From Thozetella sp. PMI_491 (Eukaryota; Ascomycota; Sordariomycetes; Chaetosphaeriales; Chaetosphaeriaceae): a stretch of DNA of 64,000 bases. The notes beneath the pieces were generated by a model, which saw nothing but the letters and a program-made list of their open reading frames with translations, searched no databases and was not told the DNA's origin. The position numbers and the translations under genes were made by a program. Positions 7,359 to 64,000 of this stretch are shown in pieces. The stretch lies in assembly GCA_021432635.1 (NCBI GenBank), contig MU270056.1, positions 363,656 through 427,655 on the forward strand. The letters run 5' to 3'. The stretch's first letter is position 1. Each line of letters starts with the position of its first letter.

Positions 7359-9617
7359 TTAGACTGCCAGGAGAAGCAGTGTATCCCCATCCTCGTCCTG
7401 AGCATCGATATCAGCACCATTCTCTACCAAAACCCCAAAGATCGACGCACTCCCCCCAACGACCGCAGCCATCGATGGAGTCCACCCGAATATAGACCTA
7501 GAATCAACAGCGGTTCCATACTTTATCAAGAGACGCACCACATCAATATGTCCCTGTCCTGCTGCTAAATGCAGTGGAGTCCATCCAAACAAAGATTTCG
7601 AGTCTAGTAGAACGCCTTTCTGGGCTAGGTAGTCTACCACCACGGTATGCCCTCCCCTAGACGCGACAGCAAGCAATGATTCTCCCCATTCATTTTGATA
7701 TTCCATATAAGCCCCATTATCGACAAGTTCGGTTAAAAGGTTGATATCACCAGTCTCAGCTGCATGCAAAGATGGCAATCGCTCTATGTCATTATGGAGA
7801 TTGGGAACTTGATGTTCGTTAGCTAGTGTGGCTATTGCTGTCTCATCCTTGTCGAGTATCGCTCGTGCTAATTTGATTGCTACAGAATCGCTTGGCGGAT
7901 TGTGCACAAGATTTTGATCTGCAGAATCATCTGCATCGCCCGGCTTCTTTGAACTGGCAACAAGGAGAACGTAACCAGCGTCGAGGGCAGTCTCGAAAAC
8001 CTCGTTATGATCGTTCACTGAGGTGTCAAGATTTGGCGTGTTCGCTAGTAGCGCGAGCAGAACTTCAGAATCTGATCCATTCGTTCTAATTCGATCGAAC
8101 TCGTCATCTTCGAATTGAAGTTGGACTTTAACTATCCCATAGAGTAGCTTCATAATCTCTTTACCGTGCGGATCACTCATCCAAAGCCTCGTTGCTTTCT
8201 CGCCTTGTATTTTTAGCTCTTGGTCGGGCTTTGGAGATATCTCTCTGAGTATATCTAGCCCTGTTGCACGATTCTCAGCTAATGCAACAACGACTTCTTC
8301 CGTGAATATAATCTGTTCACGGCATATTTGTACCATGGTTCGCATCAGGTCTATGCCGAAATCTGTGCTCTTCGCAATACCAAGAAGAGTCTTTTCTGTA
8401 ATAGCAAAGTTCTGTTCCAGAGAATTCAATCATAATACTTATAAACAGTATTATATAATTTCGTGATAGTACATACCTGGATGTTTTGTTTTCTTTGGGG
8501 AAGAAACTTCTGGATGGAGGGATAATCGGAGGATTCTACCAAATGTTCAAGAAGTCTGGTGTCGAGCGTCTCCAGTTCGGAAAGGAAGCCGTCTATAGTG
8601 TTGTAACTGCACAACTTCTCTGGCACAGAATCAATGTCGCAGAAGCAAATATGCGAAATTACAGCGCGAATGATATCGCCGATAGACTTGCTGTAATCCG
8701 GTCTTAGCTGGCCATGTCCCGCACTCTTTGAACAAAGTCCGAGTAAAGCGAAGATGCGATCTATTGGGTTGGTTGCTTCAGCCGCACGGAATCTCTTGAG
8801 AAGGCTGTAAAGGTCAGCGTTGTCCGCTACCTTCCTCATCGGGCTGGGCATGAGCTCGAGAACCGCCTGGCAGTGGGCCGACGTATTAACACCAACGAAA
8901 TGAGTGCTCATCGCAAAATAGTGAACGGGTATTGATGTTCTGCCGCATAAAACATATGCAGAACGAGCATTGCCAACTTCCTGGAGAATCCATGCTCTTC
9001 GGAACCAACTGTGTGAAAGGAACATGTCAAAGCTATGACAAAGTTCCCCGGCATCCATTTGATGTAGTGTACTGATTTGTGCCTTTTTCCATGCAAGGGA
9101 CCAGCGAGGATCATTGAATTGCAATTTGAGTTTTGGCGACTCGTTTTGAAGGGCTGTCGCAGCTTTCATTACATGGTCCGAGTGTTTAGTTGCCTTCCCA
9201 AGCCATATGATGACAAGTCTCGCATTAGTGTATATATCTTTCATATGGGCGACCTGGTGCGACTTTTCTGCCTCGCACTTTTGGTTGATACAAATACCGT
9301 CAACCCAGAAATATCCAGGATCGTACCACAGGTGACGGTGTTCCGCCGCACGTAGAGAGTCGAGCATAGTAAAGACACTTTCTGTAACAGGGAATTTATA
9401 TTCCCCGATGAAAATGTATTTATTCTTAATCCCAGCGATAAGATATCGCAATATAAGGAATTGACTCAGTGTTGTCCAGGACGGCTTCGATGAGCTCACA
9501 CTTGATGTCGCCGTGCCGCTTATCCTCCAAGCGAAGGAGTCGGAATTTTGGTGGATCATCACAAAACTGTGGGCGATCATCGTGAAGCACTTTATGTTGG
9601 AAGGTCTCTGACGCCAT
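7359..9617 (-). pseudogene. HET-domain plus ankyrin-repeat protein, interrupted by one frameshift
   Basis: The HET (heterokaryon incompatibility) domain begins at the ATG at 9617 and reads to ...IPYIAISYRW. It hits TAA at 9428-9426, while the continuation KNKYIFIGEYKFPVTESV is open one base out of phase from about 9431. No splice signal fits in the few bases between, so a small indel at ~9431 is the simplest reading. The rest of HET is intact (YFWVDGICINQ; WFRRAWILQEVGNA). An intron at 8412-8476 (GTATGT...CAG) joins QRKQNIQ to NFAITEK. The C-terminal half has about four ankyrin repeats (GWTPLHLAAGQGHIDVVRLL and relatives). HET proteins trigger cell death on non-self fusion in ascomycetes; here that is inference. 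Everything apart from the one lesion looks functional, so a sequencing error or allelic null is possible. Confidence 0.8.
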
Positions 9618-12137
9618 ATTCTGGGTTGCATAAGGGCTATTTCGATTTGGAAGCAATGTATTAGAAAGCGAAGAAAACTAACCGAGAACAGCTTGTGTCA
9701 GCAGGGGGGCCAAATCCACAATAAATACAGAATAGCGCAGAGGTGCAATCTGCAGATCCTGCCTAATCCGGGCTGAACGTGGAGAGTCTCGGGCTCTCAG
9801 TCAGCCTTACAAGGCGTTGCGTCAGGCATAAAAACCCATGGGACGAGACGGTTGACAACTCTAGCAATATTCAGCGGGCAGCGCGAGGAGCGGAAGAAAC
9901 AGGTTTGGCTATATCTTCAATCGAAAATCTTCGCAGGAGCGATGTTTAAGTATTATGCTTAGAGATTGAGAGCAGAGTATGTGCTTAAGAACAGAAGTAT
10001 TTCCTCCAGGGTTGTCCGCATTGACCTAGCGAAAGCCTTCTAACTCTTCGTTCGAGGTACTCTACCATTCAGTAAGACAGTAGATAAGGCCAGATTGGTA
10101 CGAGGCTTAGCGGGAAATATTTCCCTGCCTTCAATGTTGATCATGGAGAGACGTATTGTTCTGGCTCTCCAGTGCCGTCAGGAGCTTACGTTGAACCTCA
10201 TTTATTACCACAAGCTTCATTGCTGCCCCGATTTAATCGAAAAGTGGCTCCTTGTTGAAGTAGCGACCAATGCCCCTCCATTTTAGGCTCCGTTAAGGTC
10301 AGAATATATGGTGACTCAGTGTACCTAAGAGATGCACTGCCCCTAACTACTTTGGGTTCTTGCCAAGAAAAGTTTATATATCAACAAGTGGACGCTGAAC
10401 CTGCACGTCACAATATTCAAGTCCAGTTATGGCGTGACTCATGCAACCCCTAGTTTCTGGACCTCTGCAACTGGCTCGCACACAGCCAAAAGAGGTACTG
10501 GGCGCTGTTTGTCCATTATGGGCCGTAGGCTAGACCAGAAGTCTGTATAACGGTAGCAAGAAAGCGCCAGCTGATGGCCTGGAATTATAAAACGGACAGG
10601 AGGATGTAAAATTGCTCCACTGTCCCGTCTCTCGGTGCTATCTTTCTCTCCCAGTACATTCAAACTACAGACTCGATTATAACACATTAAACCCGTATCA
10701 CACAAAATAGAATAGGAAGGTGCCTTTTGCAGCATGTCCAGGCGATTACGGCCTTCTTCACTCTGTTGTTGCTATCTATGGCGCAGAGAGTCACAACCAG
10801 GAAGCACGTTAGAAACGACTTAGCCAGGGGTTCAGTAGCCTCGAGAACTCCTTGCGGCGCGCACTGCACTCACCGGCCGGCTAATAGCTGGATGGTGACG
10901 GCTGCAGTGGCGGCGAGCTGGAGAACCGACCTCACAGCGTTAGCTCCATTGGCACAGTCCAATGAATTATAGCAAAATTTTCAAGGTGCCTAGCGGCGTG
11001 CGCACCTACGTGTCGGTAGTTGATAGCAAATCATATGCTAGAAATCGTACTTCAACAGGCAGGAGTATATCTTGATCGAGAATGGTTCTAGAGTACGTCG
11101 CCCCTATCCTTCATTGTCGTCGTTGACCAGTGGGCAGGCAGAAGATGCGTCGCAGGTAATGCCTCAACGCGTCTAGCTTCACACCTCTATGGACATGTCT
11201 TAACTTCCTCTGTCGGTACTCGTGGAGTGCTGATTGGAGTATCGCTTCGTTCGGTCCCAGTTCACTGCCTTGTCGATTTTGCAGAGAGAGATAGCGGCCC
11301 AAATTTCGTGCACCGAGGTATGATTCCTTAATGCTTGCTTGTGAAGAATGCGTTTTGAAGGCTCCGTCAGAAATTGGCGGATGTTGGTCGGCTACCAAGG
11401 CAGATGCCAGAAAAGAAACTCCCAGTTCCCGTCAGGCGACCCAAAGTCCCTGAACCCACATCTGACCCAGCTCTCGCCACCGTCATCTCTCCACACTAGA
11501 GATAAGTACCGATACCCATCTGACAGGCCCAGAATCCCAAGACGCACCCCCTGGCTTAGCACCCTATCCGACAGCAATGATGACCCCAACCAAGCCTTCT
11601 TCCCTTCCAGTGCTGATTGCGCCCCTCTCCCCCTGTTGTCGCCATCTGCGGGAACCCGCCGTAGCCCCTCCCCCCCTACTGAAGCCCTCAACTGCCCAAA
11701 TGACTTCGGCAGACAACGTCACGCCCGACCTTCCACACCCATGTAAACGGAAGCTTCGAGCTCGCCATGGAGGAGAACGAGGCCCCCGCGCCTTTGGATC
11801 GGATCCTTTACGTGAGGTCTGTCTACTGGGGTGGCGTTTCTTGGCATGCATGAGGACCAGAAGGGAAGTTTTTGGGACGCATGCTTAGACAAAAAGGGAG
11901 GTTTCCAGCTCGCAAGCGCTACTTGGAAAATGTTGAAAAGCTGGGCTATGTCGCTAGATTCGCACAAATAAGACTCGCCTGGGCGAATTGCTAATGATGG
12001 AAGACTTTAGAAGATACTAGAATAGAGTAAATAACTATAAATCTAATCATTCCCCCTGACCCATCTTGTGCCACGCTATGATAGGGAAAAAAAATGATTA
12101 GGAATTTAAAAGGAAAGGTAAAAAGGGATTCCCTATT
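9618..12137. other. Spacer between two HET genes, no supported gene
   Basis: About 2.5 kb of mixed composition. The ORFs are short and give no domain-like translation. A plus-strand stretch at ~11760-11950 has short readable blocks (for example ELAMEENEAPAPLDRILYVR) that run into stops in every frame, so it may be a gene relic, but I cannot name it. The last ~130 bases (12000-12130) are AT-rich. Confidence 0.5.
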
Positions 12138-12455: not shown

Positions 12456-15400
12456 TTATGGCATTGATGTGGCCATCGCGCCGCTGGCCGCGTCCCAGAG
12501 CCGGACCGTGGGATCGTATGAAGCCGATGCGAGCGTCCTGCTGTCCGGCGAGAAGGCGACCCCCCCGGTACGTGCCGCTAGCCGCGTCCCAGAGCCATAC
12601 CGTGCCATCCTCCGAAGTCGACGCAAGCGTCTAGCCGCGTCCCAGAGCCGGACCGTGCCATCGCTCCAAGCCGACGCGAGCGTCCCGCCGTCCGGCGAGA
12701 AGGCGACCCCCGAGACATAACCAGTATGCCCCTCGAGCGTCTGCCGGTACGTGCCGCTAGCCGCGTCCCAGAGCCGGACCGTGCCATCCTCCGAAGCTGA
12801 CGCGAGAGTCCTGCTGTCCGGCGAGAAGGCGACCCCCCTGACATAATCAGTATGCCCCTCGAGCGTCTGCCGGTATGTGCTGCTAGCCGCGTCCCAGAGC
12901 CGGACCGTGCCATCGCTCCAAGCCGACGCGAGCGTCCCGCCGTCCGGCGAGAAGGCGACCCCCAAGACATAATCAGTATGCCCCTCGAGCGTCTGCCGGT
13001 ACGTACCGCTAGCCGCGTCCCAGAGCCGGACCGTGCCATCGCTCGAAGCCGACGCGAGCGTCCCGCCGTCCGGCGAGAAGGCGACCCCCGAGACATAACC
13101 AGTATGCCCCTCGAGCATCTGCCGGTATGTGCCGCTAGCCGCGTCCCAGAGCCGGACCGTGCCATCCTCCGAAGCTGACGCGAGCGTCCTGCTGTCCGGC
13201 GAGAAGGCGACCCCCAAGACATAATCAGTATGCCCCTCGAGCGTCTGCCGGTATGTGCCGCTAGCCGCGTCCCAGAGCCGGACCGTGCGATCGTATGAAG
13301 CCGACGCGAGCGTCCCGCCGTCCGGCGAGAAGGCGACCCCCAAGACAAAAGCAGTATGCCCCTTAAGCGTCTGCCGGTACGTGCCGATAGCCGCGTCCCA
13401 GAGCCGGACCATGCGATCGTCTAAAGCTGACGCGACCGTTGAGGTAGAGGTACACTCCTGGAACAGTAGCTGCACGACGGACTCGTGCCCCATCTTGGTG
13501 GCCCACTCCAGCGGTGTTCGGCCATCGTTGTCTTTCGAGTCGGCGTCCACCTTGCCCGTGTCAAGCAATAGCTGGACAACGGCTTCACGGCCGTTCGAGG
13601 CGGCCCAACTAAGCGGCGTCCGACCACACTCGCGATCCTTCGAGTCGGCATTCACCCCGCTTGTGAGAAGCAGCCGAACAACACTCACGTGTCCCTTGCT
13701 TGAAGCCGCGATCAACGGCGTCCATCCGTCCTTGTCCGCGACCTCCATTTCGACACCCTTGTCGAGAAGCAACTTAACAACTTCGACACAGCCGTTCTCA
13801 ACAGCCCACCGAAGCCACGTCTGGACATCCATCCTTTCTAACTCGCAACTCGCTTTCTCGCAATCAATCTGTAGAAGGTTGCTCCACTGCTTCTGTGCTT
13901 GCAACCATTGGTCAGACGTATGCTCCTGTCTTTCCTTAAGTTCTGCTTGCCTTTCACTTAGATGATGTACTTCCTGAGCTCCATTGCTTTCTTCCTCAAC
14001 TAATGCTCTCCTCCTCTCTTCAAGCCTTCTCTGTTCATCTTCTACCCCCTCTCGCTCTCTCATGATCTGCTTTAAGCGGTTTATTTGTCCCTTTACCATC
14101 TGGTTTAACTCGTCTCCTTCAACATCGTTTTGCTTTTTTTCTTCCACAATTCTCTCAAACTCCAACATTAGATCCGACTTCTGCAACTCTACAGTCGCAT
14201 CGATAGTAAAATCTGGTGGTTGAGGCATTGCTTCTGGCCTAATGATAAACATCGACCGCTGCGCATCAGGCTCCAGCGCCACACGTAGGTTGAGCGGTCC
14301 ATTGCTAGCACTTCCTCCCCAAGATGCTTTTTGCGTCAAATTTGGAAGCTTTGCAGCTAGCTCCTCCAGTGGCGTACGTCTGCAGCATGTCACAACGCAG
14401 CATTGAGGCTTGATGCCGGTGTCGTGCTGTTTAAACTCGAGCACTACGACGAAATCCCGAGACTCTGCCTCATCATGACGGAATCGAGCCAAGATCTGAT
14501 GCGTAGCGTCATCATCTGGTTTCGTTGTCGACGTGATCAGAGCTACTTCTTTATCCCAGCAAGACCGAGGCGCCACGTCCACTAATTCTAAGTTGATTTC
14601 GGCAAATCCATCGTCGTAGAGCCAGTGCAGTCTATTCACATCTTGGTGCTTCGTGCTTTGACTGTCGTGCTTGATGTGGATTGGCTGGGGCGATGCGTCA
14701 GACGCAGTTTTCGGCCGCAGCACTGCACGAGAACCCCTTGGTCTGGCATACTCGTCGGACGACCCCGACGTCATCTTGGCAAGAGGAATGCCAACCACTT
14801 GAGTGCTATGCTCGGGCCCGCACCGAAGCAGCCCCATTGCCTTGTCGACGGAAGTTGGGAGTAGCGATAAATATATCCGAAGACTGCCGCCGGAAATGTC
14901 GAGCGAGTGTAAAGACGTGGAGGACTGGTCCCGGGAGACAATCCTCCCGGATTGTGCAAAGTCTGATGGGGCGGCCGCCAATATTCTCCCGGGCGTGACT
15001 TGGCAGGAGTCGCTGGCGGGTGATTCATCGTCGCTAAGACCCCACGCTAGGATAGAATCATCTCTCTTTGTCTTCATAATCTGTTCCTGCAGCCGGAAGA
15101 AAGCCTGTTCACCACCCTCGCCATATATCATCGGCATCGTCACGCCGAAGATGCCCAGGAGACAATATGCGAGGTCTTCCTTCCTTTTCGTCTCTCTCCG
15201 CGCAGCCCATGACATACGCTGCGCAAGACTCGCGGTATGCAAGTCAGTGATGCCCTTCAGAAATGGGCGGGGTACACCAGTGATTTCCTCGATGGCGGTA
15301 CACATGCCTCCCTTCGTCCCTAGGTAGCGCCACTCCGAATTGTAAAACTGCAAGCGCTTGGGTGCGAGAAGCTCTTGCAGGGTCCATCCTCTCTTGAACC

Positions 15401-15782
15401 ACCGACTTATCCAGAACTTAGAGCTACGCCTCCGGGGGTCGTCATCGCCGGGAATGTCAGACAGATAGGCATAGCAAACGGAAGCACGCTTGTACCATCG
15501 AAACATGGAGTTGATAGCCTCACTAAGCTCTACCAAGTTGGTTTTATCAATGCAGCAAGTATCAATCCAAGCGTATCCGAGGCCATCCGTCGCGGCTTGT
15601 CGACAGCATCCCCGAAACTTGACCGAGCCGACACCGGGTTTGTCGATTTCCCCCTCTTCAACGTTGCGGAAAGTGAGCTCTTCGCGGTCCTCCCCCCAAG
15701 TATGGGATAGTATGGCATATCGGGGAGTTTGGTAGTCGAGAAACTCCTCTAGCTTGAACGTCTTGACGTTGATCAGGCGCAT
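12456..15782 (-). CDS. HET domain / coiled coil / ankyrin / WD40 repeat protein (putative incompatibility protein)
   Basis: A single exon of 1108 residues. The ATG at 15782 (MRLINVKTF) is chosen because it matches the usual start of this class; the frame upstream has only a GTG. HET domain at ~residues 10-200: YAILSHTWGEDREELTF, GYAWIDTCCIDK, WFKRGWTLQELLAP. The segment after HET (QIMKTKRDDSILAWGL) is typical of this class. A coiled coil covers ~550-640, ankyrin repeats ~655-780, and WD40 units of 42 residues ~785-1100. No P-loop (GxxxxGKS/T) is visible, so unlike Podospora HET-E/HET-D it lacks a NACHT module. The WD units differ at only a few positions. The reading frame makes two compensating shifts near the C-terminus and ends on the first bases of a foreign ankyrin segment. 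A role in non-self recognition is inferred. Confidence 0.88.
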   Translation of the reverse strand: MRLINVKTFKLEEFLDYQTPRYAILSHTWGEDREELTFRNVEEGEIDKPGVGSVKFRGCCRQAATDGLGYAWIDTCCIDKTNLVELSEAINSMFRWYKRASVCYAYLSDIPGDDDPRRRSSKFWISRWFKRGWTLQELLAPKRLQFYNSEWRYLGTKGGMCTAIEEITGVPRPFLKGITDLHTASLAQRMSWAARRETKRKEDLAYCLLGIFGVTMPMIYGEGGEQAFFRLQEQIMKTKRDDSILAWGLSDDESPASDSCQVTPGRILAAAPSDFAQSGRIVSRDQSSTSLHSLDISGGSLRIYLSLLPTSVDKAMGLLRCGPEHSTQVVGIPLAKMTSGSSDEYARPRGSRAVLRPKTASDASPQPIHIKHDSQSTKHQDVNRLHWLYDDGFAEINLELVDVAPRSCWDKEVALITSTTKPDDDATHQILARFRHDEAESRDFVVVLEFKQHDTGIKPQCCVVTCCRRTPLEELAAKLPNLTQKASWGGSASNGPLNLRVALEPDAQRSMFIIRPEAMPQPPDFTIDATVELQKSDLMLEFERIVEEKKQNDVEGDELNQMVKGQINRLKQIMREREGVEDEQRRLEERRRALVEEESNGAQEVHHLSERQAELKERQEHTSDQWLQAQKQWSNLLQIDCEKASCELERMDVQTWLRWAVENGCVEVVKLLLDKGVEMEVADKDGWTPLIAASSKGHVSVVRLLLTSGVNADSKDRECGRTPLSWAASNGREAVVQLLLDTGKVDADSKDNDGRTPLEWATKMGHESVVQLLFQECTSTSTVASALDDRMVRLWDAAIGTYRQTLKGHTAFVLGVAFSPDGGTLASASYDRTVRLWDAASGTYRQTLEGHTDYVLGVAFSPDSRTLASASEDGTVRLWDAASGTYRQMLEGHTGYVSGVAFSPDGGTLASASSDGTVRLWDAASGTYRQTLEGHTDYVLGVAFSPDGGTLASAWSDGTVRLWDAASSTYRQTLEGHTDYVRGVAFSPDSRTLASASEDGTVRLWDAASGTYRQTLEGHTGYVSGVAFSPDGGTLASAWSDGTVRLWDAARRLRRLRRMARYGSGTRLAARTGGVAFSPDSRTLASASYDPTVRLWDAASGAMATSMP
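12475..13435 (-). repeat. Tandem WD40-encoding minisatellite, about 126-bp unit, roughly 7-8 units
   Basis: Near-identical 42-codon units recur along the 3' part of the HET gene, each containing TVRLWDAASGTYRQTLEGHT and GVAFSPD. Six units are intact. Variation concentrates at a few codons: the residue after GHT (A/D/G), the one before GVAFSPD (L/S/R), the GG/SR pair after SPD, and S/W plus Y/E/S before the final Asp. The two units nearest the 3' end carry internal deletions. High identity with clustered variable codons is the pattern known from Podospora HET-E/D/R. Confidence 0.93.
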
Positions 15783-59197: not shown

Positions 59198-61434
59198 GGT
59201 GTGTTTTCTTGGCTTGCCGCAAGAAAGATTGGGCCAGAGGAGGTGCGGCGTGAGCGATAAAGTGTTGTCGGGAGCTTCGGGGCAGTTCTCGCCCTCAATT
59301 ACAAATTTTAAGCCGATAAGATCGGGGAAACCGGATCTTGTCATCGGGAATCTCGGGTCACGTGGGGGCCGATGTTAGCCGCGTTTGTGCGGGCCCTGTC
59401 GCCGTGTTGCCGGGTCTCTGGGCCTGCAGGAAGCCATGGCCATTTAAGCTTACCCGCATCTCAAGGGCATACGGAGTAGGACAGGGCTGCTCTCTCGGCG
59501 TGTCTGTGGCCTGTGAGCGTGCTCGTGTCTCCCTCCCCCGCTCTTGTATACAAACCTGGTTTTGTGGTGGTTGGCAGGCTATGGCGTCTTAGGTGCCTGT
59601 CTACATTCTACTTTGGGAGGTACAGTACTAGATAACAATGAGCAGGCTGGGATGCTACTCCTCTAAGTTGTCATCAGGGTTGGGGTTGGGATTGGGTCTT
59701 GGCTGGTCCCTGGCCAGTCCCTAGCTAGTTTGCTCTTTCGATCACCGTCCCTGCTCCTCGTGGGATGCCTCGGTTCGCTCGTCTCCCCTCAGCAAAACCG
59801 CTGTCAGGGAGAAGCTGACGGCTGCTGGGTAGCCCGGAAACATAGAAGTTGGGGCGAAGACGGCCCGGATCTTCAGGACACATGGCTCCCGTAGAGAGTT
59901 CGCATCCTTAGTGGACGCCCATGATGGCCAAGGTTTGGACGACGATGAAACTGGTCTGCTACAGACGCCGACGGGCTGGAATTTCTGGAACCTTATTTTG
60001 CCGTGCTCCTCACTGGCCCAGCTGACCTCATAGGCCACCAAGATTTAGCCACACAGAGCATCGTCCAAGCAGGCGCTGAACATCCAACCACCCCCCCTCG
60101 ACAACCCCCTCCACTACCCCCGAAATGCCAGCATGCCGGATCAGAAGGCTAGTGCGATGGATGGTCGTGGGGTGCAGCGAAACGGCCCATTCCATGTCAT
60201 GCCTTTTGGGGGGAGGAGGAGAATATGGGGAACTGTGCTCGGCCAATTGCCGGATCGATCGTCACCCGTGATTCTCAGATGGGAACTGGCCCGCGCATTG
60301 AGACAGATGCTGTTGCGCGATCTGGCCTTGGCCCCGACGTGCCGTCGAGGCAACCAAGGGCTCCTAAAAAAAGCTTCTAGGGAACCTCTTCTCCACTTGC
60401 CCTGGCAGAGCTCCCAGTTGGTGTCTAATTATTCCCATCTTGCTCTACACTCAGCCACGCCCCTTCCTCCTAGCTCGGGCCAGTCTTCGGACTTAATTAA
60501 TCTTTGCTAGTCAAGCACGGAGCGGCGGGTACACGCAGCTGTCCGGCGGGCTCAGCTGGGCGGCGAGCAGGATTGCGTAACGCACTGGGCGGCTGGGTCA
60601 CCTGGTAGGCCAGGCAGTAGCAGTGGGTGAAATGGATTGAGTGATGACAGCGCCAGCCAGGCCAGCCCGCCCGGCCGCCCTTCAGCCCCCCATGCTATCA
60701 TGCCTGGCCTGTCTTACTACCAGGCCAGGGGACGATGGCTAATTAAAAAAAAATGAAAAAAAATGAAAACCCTTGGGCGCTGGCCATATCTTTGTTGGAT
60801 GGCTGGCCAACAAAAACTGTGGGTAATGGCAATAGAACACAAACAAAGGGTCGCTCTTGGCTTGTTGTGCCCGCTGCTCACCCCCCAGTCGCCCCCATTC
60901 TCTCCCCCGTCTGGCCGTCCAGCGAGCGAGCGAGCTCGTATGGAGCAGGGGTGTCCGTTGCAGTGACGAAAGCGTCGCCTCTGCGCCCGTCAGTGCTGCT
61001 GCTGCCGGCCGCTGATCCCGAACAGAACCCATTTCCGCATACTGTGCGAGAGCATCTGTCCCCACTGCTCGCACTGCGCGACGCTAACAAATCACGGGCG
61101 GGAACAGCGGAAAGCGCAGTCCAGGGTAGCCGAGCTGACGTTAGACGTCTGGTGCCACCCGCGCTAGACTGGACAGTGTGGTTACCAGGGGTCCCAGGCC
61201 TTCCCTGTTCTGTTTCGGCTGTGCTCTCGCCTCTTCCAAACGTCTCACAACCACCTCACCTCCTTCACCATCGCAACCGGCCAACCTCTTCCATTCCAAC
61301 ATTTCTCCCCCCATCCCCCTAAGACCAGCTCCCATCGCCCTCCTACCGCGAAAACCCTCCCAAACGCTACCAAGACTCAAAAACTCATTGCGCTGCGCTC
61401 TTTAGCAAGCCTTTAACTCGTCCTAAACGCCAAA
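59198..61434. other. Divergent intergenic region, no gene recognised
   Basis: About 2.2 kb between the lipoyl synthase and synaptobrevin starts, which are divergent, so it holds both promoters. The last ~250 bases are C/T-rich, typical of a fungal leader. No ORF has a protein-like pattern. Confidence 0.5.
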
Positions 61435-63568
61435 ATGCCTGAGGAAGCTCCCTATGATCCCTACATCCCCAGCGGCGGCGCTGCGCCGACCCAGCAGTCA
61501 CAGCCCACGGGAAATGCGAGGACTCAAGCCCTCCAGTCGGTAAGTACCCGATGACTCCTGTGATGCATCCACCCATAGAAGAAAGAAAAAGGGGTAAGAG
61601 ATGATTGTTCTGGTCGCCATGACTTGGTCTCGTGCATTTGTCGGCCTTCCCATGTACCGGATCCCTCTGCGTCGGCTCGAGTAGCTGCGACTCTGGGCGG
61701 TCGAGATCGCATCGTCACTAGCCGCCTTGACACGACGACAAGCCGCGCGATGGCCTTACACAGGCGGCTAGCATCAAAGCGGAGCCGTCGACTGTCGACA
61801 GTCGCAACGAAATGGAAGATGGAAATTCACTTCACCACCACCGCGGCCTCGTCCCTTACGCCTTGCGGTCACAATGACCCAACACACACAGAGGCTTTGG
61901 CAATTCGTTCATTTCCATCAACCTCGACCCTGCTGCCAAAGAATTATCAATCGCTATGAGCTACGACCCCTCCTCCAAGTCGCCGGATTCGGCCGATCCT
62001 CCTGAGGCCAAGTTCGACAACACCAACATATGGGAATCAATCGATCGTCTGCGAGGCGGCGTGCCTCTTGGCGCTATCCCGCTTTCCCGAGAGGCTTGGG
62101 ATGCTACCAAACCGGCAATGAGCCCCAACAACCCAATTCGTCTCTACGATGCTCAGTTTCCAAAGCATCCTACTGTCTCCCGTCCTGCCCCGCGCTCTCC
62201 TTCTCCCTACAAGTTTTTTGAAGGATCGGATGATCCGGCTCTCCAAGAAGAGATCGAGAGCCAGATCCAAGAAGTCGGCTGGGGAACCCTCCGAGACGAT
62301 GCCGAGCGCAGCATCACTGAGCTTCGTACCGAAATTGAGGAGCTGGAAGCCAAGGCTTCGGACGCTGCCGCCAGCCGCAGCATTCATCGCCAGCTCGAGC
62401 GTCGATATGAACACGGCGCCTCTGCCTGGGAGGCCCGTCACAAGGAGCTTGCCAGCGAGGAGCTGGCGCTTCGATTCCATCAAGAGAAGCTCGACATGGA
62501 GATGCTGCAACGCCGGAACAGGCTGTTCCATCTGTCACGATCAATCATCCGGCGCAATTTCGCGCAGCAATTCGGTCGCCGAGGTGATGACGTCGAGGCA
62601 GTTCTAGCTTGCAATCGGCCGGGTCACCATGGCATGAGATCAACCGGCTGGGCGACCTCGGGTGACACTCTCATGCGCCACATTGAAACGGTTGTCGGAT
62701 GCAAGGGCGGCGGGATGAGACTTGTCCAGGCCGTGGTCCCTGGTTTCTCCGGCCACCAGCAAACCGGCTGGCCCTCACGTGGCCAATCCTTGGAGGAGTA
62801 TGCTCGCAAGACCCATGGTGTTGCAGCGGTCCAGATTCGCCTTGCCAATTCACGCTTTGGCGGCGAGCCGGGACGCTTCGGTCTGCGACACACGGGCTGG
62901 CCGCTGCCTGGCCAGTCGCTCATGGAACATCAGCGCAAGACCCACGGCATCATAGCTGTCGGGAGCATCGTAGCCTCCCCACCTCTTGTTGACCGGGCTT
63001 GCCAAACCAGCTATGTCGACCTCACTCGACTTCCAAGCCTAGACGAAATGGAGCAAGGCGCCATCCGGAAGGAGGCATCAATCCATGGCCATAGGCGCAC
63101 TGGCTGGTCCGCGGCGACCAAGAACATCATCTCTTACTAACCTGCTTTCCATAGCTTGAGCGATGGATAACGCGCTAACTCGCGAGTAGCAAATCGACGA
63201 CACCGTCGGTATCATGCGCGACAACATCAACAAGGTCTCGCAGCGTGGTGAGCGTCTCGATGCGCTTCAGGACAAGACGGACAACCTCGCCGTCTCTGCG
63301 CAAGGTTTCCGCCGGGGTGCGAACCGGGTGCGCAAGCAGATGTGGTGGAAGGTGAGCGAGCCTCCTGTTGCTGCACGCAGCTATGGCCACAGGCCGAGAC
63401 TGACACCTTTATAGGACATGAAGATGCGCATGTGCCTCATTGCTGGTATCATTATTCTTATTCTCGTCATCGTTGTGCCCGCCGGTATGCTCGCCCCTCT
63501 TTGTCCCCTCCAGACCTGCCACGGTAGTTTACTGACACTGTACGACAGTCGTTGCCACTCGCCACTAA
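61435..63568 (+). CDS. SNC1: Synaptobrevin / v-SNARE (Snc1-like), with a 1.65-kb first intron
   Basis: Spliced as join(61435..61539, 63190..63351, 63415..63484, 63549..63568), 118 residues, the normal length. Exon 1 encodes the N-terminal stretch ending LQS. Exon 2 encodes the R-SNARE helix ([36 protein letters not shown]), with the zero-layer Arg at residue 54. The juxtamembrane WW is in KQMWWK. Exon 3 encodes a Cys in MRMCLIAG, the position palmitoylated in yeast Snc1, and a single transmembrane segment ([16 protein letters not shown]). The last exon encodes the end VVATRH. It would act on secretory vesicles fusing at the plasma membrane, and in endocytic recycling. The donor GTAAGT at 61540 and the CTAAC-then-TAG acceptor at 63189 are canonical. 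The intron contains another ORF. Confidence 0.93.
61956..63140 (+). CDS. ORF nested in the synaptobrevin intron: coiled coil plus four TGW motifs, unknown family
   Basis: An uninterrupted frame of 394 codons lies on the same strand, wholly inside intron 1 of the synaptobrevin gene and ending 50 bases before its acceptor. Residues 1-85 are Pro/Ser/Asp-rich. Residues ~90-210 are charged and helical with coiled-coil character ([52 protein letters not shown]). The C-terminal half carries the motif G-x3-TGW at residues 230, 270, 313 and 382. The middle copies extend to TGWPxxGQSLxExxRKTHG. Repeat conservation at protein level, codon use like the neighbours and the absence of stops argue for a real gene. 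The family is not recognised. The ATG context (GCTATGAG) is ordinary, and an upstream intron or start cannot be excluded. Confidence 0.8.
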   Translation: MSYDPSSKSPDSADPPEAKFDNTNIWESIDRLRGGVPLGAIPLSREAWDATKPAMSPNNPIRLYDAQFPKHPTVSRPAPRSPSPYKFFEGSDDPALQEEIESQIQEVGWGTLRDDAERSITELRTEIEELEAKASDAAASRSIHRQLERRYEHGASAWEARHKELASEELALRFHQEKLDMEMLQRRNRLFHLSRSIIRRNFAQQFGRRGDDVEAVLACNRPGHHGMRSTGWATSGDTLMRHIETVVGCKGGGMRLVQAVVPGFSGHQQTGWPSRGQSLEEYARKTHGVAAVQIRLANSRFGGEPGRFGLRHTGWPLPGQSLMEHQRKTHGIIAVGSIVASPPLVDRACQTSYVDLTRLPSLDEMEQGAIRKEASIHGHRRTGWSAATKNIISY

Positions 63569-64000
63569 GGAAGAAAATACCCCTGCGTTGGCTACAACGA
63601 CTCTCTGAATCGGCATGGGAAGGGCACGAAACTGGATTTCGCAGCTATGAGCGTTGTGAAAGGGGAATGGTCATGGTTCTATGCAACGATTTTTGATTTC
63701 AGGGGGAGTTCATCGTCTTGATTTCCAAACCCCCCCCAACGGGTCTGACCAAGCACGTCACGAGAGGGCCGGCCAAGACCGCGGTTCCTGGGGCTCCAGG
63801 ACCACGCGAAGACCGGCTGTCCTCACCGGGCTGGACATTCCCGATGTATGTAGGATGGAGGCGGTGGGGCGTTCTCCATACGATTAATCAGGACATTTGA
63901 TGAGCGATGCAATTTATGCGGTACCCTAGCCTGCAGCTGCCTCTGTTATCCACGTTCAAGTGCCGTGTGCTGTGCCTGTTGGGAGAGTCTAAGAGGAAGG
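63569..64000. other. 3' flank of the synaptobrevin gene to the window edge
   Basis: About 430 bases with no supported gene; it probably contains the synaptobrevin 3' UTR. Two short frames (63681-63887 and 63718-63900) show no domain-like pattern. Confidence 0.5.

Follow-up and report, generated by a model that had tools for sequence, protein, structure and literature searches.

Introns of filamentous fungi are short as a rule, and a locus in the ascomycete Thozetella sp. PMI_491 raises the question of how a spliceosome adapted to such introns handles one the size of a gene. The locus lies in the window, the whole 64,000-nucleotide stretch of DNA that was analysed, which is part of one contig (C42) of a 72.3 Mb genome assembled in 157 contigs. 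Here, the first intron of a SNARE gene, SNC1, is long enough to hold a complete open reading frame on the same strand. Understanding the arrangement requires a reliable exon structure for the host, a judgment on whether the enclosed frame is coding, and a view of how the distant ends of the intron could be joined. The features of the host and of the nested frame are:

61435-61539, + strand: SNC1 exon 1, 35 codons, ending in phase 0
61540-63189, + strand: SNC1 intron 1, 1650 nt, phase 0, GTAAGT...CTAAC (candidate branch A at 63178)...TAG
63190-63351, + strand: SNC1 exon 2, containing the SNARE motif
63415-63484, + strand: SNC1 exon 3, hydrophobic segment
63549-63568, + strand: SNC1 exon 4, ending at the stop codon
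61956-63140, + strand: nested intronless open reading frame, 394 amino acids, ATG to TAA, uninterrupted
62622-63137, + strand: repeat region of the nested protein, residues 223-394, four imperfect repeats A-D

The host is a Snc/VAMP-type R-SNARE of the Synaptobrevin family. Its spliced product of 118 amino acids matches PF00957 with an E value of 1e-33 (115.5 bits against a cut-off of 26.4), and it combines the R-SNARE motif with a C-terminal membrane anchor, the latter recognised as a hydrophobic C-terminus when the translation was read by eye. Intron 1 begins with the donor GTAAGT at 61540, ends with the acceptor GAGTAG at 63189, and interrupts the protein between LQS and QIDD in phase 0; exon 1, both splice sites, and the start of exon 2 all lie where a first-pass annotation of the sequence had placed them. 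In alignments with yeast Snc1 from the PDB (9cru_J, E value 1.4e-32, and 3b5n_A), the junction LQS|QIDDT is crossed without a gap. Since the two proteins are colinear over the junction, SNC1 lacks no residues there and exon 1 is very probably correct; for the same reason we rejected an alternative exon 1. The first-pass annotation had also described intron 1 as far longer than every other intron here. This holds against the remaining two SNC1 introns, of 63 nt (63352-63414) and 64 nt (63485-63548), to which our comparison was limited. The SNC1 gene of Saccharomyces cerevisiae presumably has its single intron at the same place; if so, intron 1 is old and only its contents are new.

Correct splicing of this transcript should matter to the fungus, because none of the other four PF00957 matches in the genome (five in all, four above the cut-off) looks Snc-type by eye. 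One is an R-SNARE exon on contig C29 (L005, 1468-1770) with the diverged motif EIDDVRGIMTRNI, which we take to be VAMP7/Nyv1-like and perhaps a longin-type vacuolar R-SNARE. A second match on C29 we regard, by eye, as a Ykt6-like piece, that on C33 as a Sec22-like protein, and that on C4 as a syntaxin-like protein. A second Snc gene was ruled out on these resemblances, leaving the gene in the window as the sole Snc-type gene found in a genome of which parts read N.

The 394-codon frame reported in the first-pass annotation is present in intron 1, on the host's strand, as described. Its length is informative to a limited degree: among 2000 dinucleotide shuffles of the intron, the longest ATG-initiated frame averaged 120 amino acids, with a 99th percentile of 257 and a maximum of 401. 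A frame of this size is thus rare yet possible by chance, and the case for coding is carried by codon use and by internal repeats. In frame, the codon score is 0.065 bits per codon; the other five frames range from -0.27 to 0.033, the highest being an antisense frame, so that the margin is small. The ten genes of the training set, chosen by eye from sixteen frames in the window and two of them shortened, scored 0.045-0.388 on themselves rather than by leave-one-out, and shadow frames of at least 120 codons reached at most -0.009 (13 rows, 8 of them distinct). With an earlier training set scored by leave-one-out, the nested frame obtained 0.094 and eight correctly framed genes obtained 0.054 to 0.244. 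Two frames trusted by eye fell below zero in that test, 12456-15782 (-0.011) and 8426-9631 (-0.094), and the second was left out of the final set. The codon signal of the nested frame is therefore near the low end of genes here. The 12456-15782 frame, on the minus strand, encodes 1108 amino acids with what appear by eye to be a HET-like N-terminus, ankyrin-like repeats, and near-identical WD40 repeats, an architecture reminiscent of fungal NLR-type incompatibility genes.

The internal repeats lie in the C-terminal part of the nested protein and are of the type TGW...RKTHG, the best pair sharing TGWPxxGQSLxExxRKTHG. Repeats B and C are identical at 16 of 25 residues, 9 of these 16 are encoded by different codons, and the DNA differences between the two are distributed 7/6/14 over the three codon positions. 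We read this third-position excess as a trace of selection on a protein. Comparisons of repeat A with B and C (17/14/17 and 13/12/15) have little such excess; A and the truncated D are the weaker members, and the six pairs gave p values from 0 to 0.0034 in 5000 residue shuffles each, for segments that were chosen by eye.

Searches for relatives of the nested protein returned little. The whole protein had no Pfam match at E values up to 1, two pieces of it had sub-threshold Pfam matches (best E value 0.084), the best NCBIfam match (E value 0.019) was far under the cut-off, a single match among PDB sequences (E value 0.2) was not convincing, and IMG/VR held no relative. In the genome, the frame occurs at one place and has no paralogue that we could find. 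A single-sequence AlphaFold model was poor, with a mean pLDDT of 43.2 and values over 50 confined to about residues 92-191; a long helical stretch at about residues 94-206, predicted with moderate confidence, is what we take for a coiled coil. By its codon use and repeats, the frame looks coding, and the sequence evidence supports the view that SNC1 intron 1 holds a same-strand protein-coding gene, as first proposed. The contrary reading, that the intron is an enlarged one whose open frame is decayed or due to chance, is in our judgment improbable: the unconvincing Pfam, NCBIfam, and PDB results, the empty IMG/VR search, the missing paralogue, and the fact that at least one of the 2000 shuffles attains the length of the frame all favor it, and the codon use and the B/C third-position excess speak against it.

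How such a gene might be expressed is constrained by its surroundings. In an unspliced SNC1 transcript, nine ATGs follow the donor and precede the nested start, and with this many the nested frame most likely needs a start site of its own. The reading frame of the last of these ATGs (61874) runs past the nested start in a different register, so that the nested transcript probably begins downstream of it, or leaky scanning is tolerated. At the other end, the gap from the nested stop codon to SNC1 exon 2 is 49 nt long. A search of 63141-63900 for seven hexamers resembling poly(A) signals gave a sole match, AAGAAA at 63571, just past the SNC1 stop codon, and none between the nested stop and that position. 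The short gap and the lone hexamer make it more likely that the nested transcript enters the SNC1 exons or shares their 3′ end. We accordingly envisage that transcription of the nested gene would begin at a start site of its own, shortly before 61956, and that its transcript would end in or after the SNC1 exons.

It had been suggested that alternative polyadenylation makes expression of one of the two genes exclude that of the other. In favor of this, they lie on the same strand in overlapping units. The 49-nt gap, the lack of any of the seven hexamers before 63571, and the nine upstream ATGs of the unspliced SNC1 transcript all count against it, and we consider this idea very improbable.

The more interesting part of the locus, statistically strong and putative in function, is that the ends of intron 1 are complementary. 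These complementary arms, and a second set of splice signals close to them, are new relative to the first-pass annotation:

61594-61618, + strand: left arm of an inverted repeat, non-coding, starting with the donor-like GTAAGA
63113-63137, + strand: right arm of the inverted repeat; encodes the C-terminal end of the nested protein
63135-63154, + strand: second branch point and acceptor, TACTAAC followed by CATAG, candidate branch A at 63140

Within intron 1, the distance to the donor is 54 nt for the left arm, and that to the acceptor is 52 nt for the right arm. They pair at 21 of 25 positions without gaps, or in 24 matched columns with two one-base gaps, and the duplex has an energy of -37.2 kcal/mol. 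In the partition function of the pre-mRNA from 61435 to 63260, 21 of the 25 bases in the left arm have a probability of at least 0.98 of pairing with their partner, and the remaining four lie at or beside bulges.

Complementarity of this degree at the ends of an intron-sized segment is exceptional in both shuffled and real DNA. The first 100 and last 100 nt of the intron give a complementarity score of 40, which was reached by none of 50,000 shuffles (best 34), by none of 6,195 tiles of the same geometry elsewhere in the window (best 28; 40 of 6,235 tiles around the arms were set aside), and by none of 13,390 tiles free of N from other parts of the genome (best 33), making 19,585 real tiles in all. 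The genome tiles came from 20 control stretches, of which three (L010, L020, and L029) read N throughout, one contains 6,245 N, and two contain a few. When the positional condition was dropped and one half of the intron was compared with the other, 2 of 5000 shuffles matched the stem; on real DNA, half-against-half scores did not exceed 38 among 312 tiles of the window or 35 among 674 tiles from other parts of the genome, and none of these matched it. All of these tests compared non-overlapping halves or ends and concern a stem that was found post hoc.

Each arm occurs at one genomic place at up to three mismatches, and the first 416 nt of the intron (61540-61955) likewise have a single place; from these single placements, no repeated transposon end and no multiplying intron is seen. 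A transposon with terminal repeats was considered and rejected, there being no further copies and, by eye, no direct repeat flanking the arms. A search of 60800-64000 against Rfam at E values up to 1 gave no match.

The arms coincide with splice-like signals. Between 61435 and 63352 there are six donors of the form GTRNG, two of them at the 5′ end of the intron (61540 and 61594), and four branch-like motifs followed by YAG, only two of which contain CTAAC, in units ending at 63154 and 63189. The inner donor, GTAAGA at 61594, begins with the first base of the left arm. At the other end, TACTAAC overlaps the end of the right arm, and the candidate inner branch A at 63140 coincides with the final base of the nested stop codon. 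Judged by these motifs, the outer intron contains a complete candidate inner intron (61594-63154, 1561 nt). Removal of this inner unit would leave an 89-nt remnant, a length similar to that of the remaining SNC1 introns (63 and 64 nt). When the frames were followed by eye, either direct splicing of the outer sites or removal of the inner unit followed by the outer one gave the SNC1 mRNA. Mixed use would run into a stop codon, after seven codons for the outer donor with the inner acceptor and after four for the reverse combination.

Folding models bear on which of these sites the stem could bring together. The predicted distance from the inner donor to the inner branch A is 4 steps, a value reached in none of 60 interior shuffles and none of 30 left-arm shuffles, and the models strongly support that the inner ends meet. 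Between the outer donor and its branch A they predict 36 steps, where the shuffle medians are 73.5 (interior) and 90 (left-arm); 5 of 60 interior and 2 of 30 left-arm shuffles equalled or beat this value. The distance from outer donor to outer acceptor, 42 steps, was equalled or beaten in 8 of 60 and 3 of 30, respectively. For a bridge between the outer sites, the modelling support is thus weak.

We propose, with a probability of just under one half (about 0.48), that a single-copy intronless gene resides in an ancient SNC1 intron and that a zipper-like stem either bridges the intron or hides its inner sites. Both arms would be present in the SNC1 pre-mRNA, and their pairing would form a stem from which the nested gene is looped out. 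The stem would cover the inner decoy donor and branch point, and by joining the intron ends it would allow the outer donor at 61540 to be spliced to the outer acceptor at 63189. If the nested gene does have its own start site near 61956, its mRNA would lack the left arm, and only the SNC1 pre-mRNA could form the stem. Two functions fit the stem within this proposal, a zipper that loops the gene out and a mask over the inner decoy sites. Points against a bridge are that the right arm is coding sequence, that the outer sites are not brought significantly closer when taken on their own, and that terminal inverted repeats in Hypoxylaceae introns have been suggested to be unnecessary for excision (PMC8469720).

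In ranking explanations of the stem, we placed the bridge or mask ahead of an incidental inverted repeat, and two-step splicing after both. The incidental explanation accepts the nested gene as real, regards the arms as a by-product of its origin (for example, an inverted micro-duplication at insertion) with no role, and has the 1650-nt intron spliced unaided. We consider it the less likely account, and a serious one: the outer structural distance lies inside the shuffle range, one arm is coding sequence, and the terminal repeats of Hypoxylaceae introns were suggested to be dispensable for excision in the part of that study concerned with them (PMC8469720). A random duplication, however, would not be expected to place its arms near both ends of an intron and abutting splice-like signals.

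Two-step splicing would remove the inner unit, 61594-63154, first and the 89-nt outer intron afterwards, giving the same SNC1 mRNA. The two donors at the 5′ end, the presence of only two CTAAC-plus-YAG units, the size of the remnant, and the 4-step distance that the stem sets between inner donor and inner branch A (0 of 60 and 0 of 30 shuffles) are all in keeping with it. The same stem, however, pairs the inner donor and part of TACTAAC and could block both, and GTAAG and CTAAC are short enough to occur by chance; we hold this route to be unlikely. A broader version, also unlikely in our estimate, is that the gene travels in a stem-ended inner intron housed by an ancient outer one, with SNC1 spliced in two steps or with the stem picking either the inner or the outer sites, so that the two genes are tied together. 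Were this true, the nested coding sequence would itself form one strand of the stem that protects splicing of its host.

Several known systems resemble parts of this locus. Intron-nested protein-coding genes, reviewed mainly in animals, likewise consist of a complete reading frame in an intron of an unrelated host gene, and a review regards them in animals as a likely neutral development (PMC3488318). Unlike the animal cases, the present host is fungal, with two further introns of 63 and 64 nt, and its long intron has complementary arms at the ends. Among fungi, the transcriptome of Chaetomium thermophilum, according to an excerpt of its description, includes 28 transcripts lying wholly in a reference intron and 5 with a reference gene in an intron of theirs (PMC8535861). 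An open-access literature search of limited scope yielded no case, as far as we could recognise, of a fungal SNC1 intron with a gene inside it, and the words intron and exon are absent from the available portion of a review of fungal Snc1 (PMC10252874).

The Hypoxylaceae stwintrons are nested introns with terminal inverted repeats in filamentous ascomycetes, and the SNC1 locus shares these attributes, its inner intron being putative. As outlined in part of the published account, the inner intron of a stwintron splits an outer splice signal, sister copies exist, one example measures 207 nt, and the repeats are suggested to be unnecessary for excision (PMC8469720). In SNC1, the inner sites are set back by 54 nt and 35 nt from the intron ends, so that none of the outer signals (donor, CTAAC, and TAG) is split, and the definition of a stwintron does not apply. 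The locus also differs in that the inner unit carries a gene, and in that the arms, the reading frame, and 61540-61955 each have a single place in a genome that is partly N, unlike the copies of a propagating sister-type stwintron. The single-place arms and, by eye, the missing flanking direct repeat likewise separate it from transposable elements with terminal inverted repeats.

In its proposed function, the stem resembles the zipper stems of Saccharomyces. In the introns of RPS17B, RPS6B, and APE2, a segment following the donor pairs with one that precedes the branch point, which draws these two sites together; the introns of RPS6B and APE2 are 352 and 383 nt long (PMC2536676). SNC1 intron 1 has complementary segments in the corresponding positions, just inside the donor and the branch point, with a putative role in splicing. 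If the bridge works, the last codons of the nested gene would be selected both for its protein and for splicing of SNC1. Unlike the RPS6B and APE2 zippers, the stem described here spans an intron of 1650 nt, and one of its arms codes for the nested gene.
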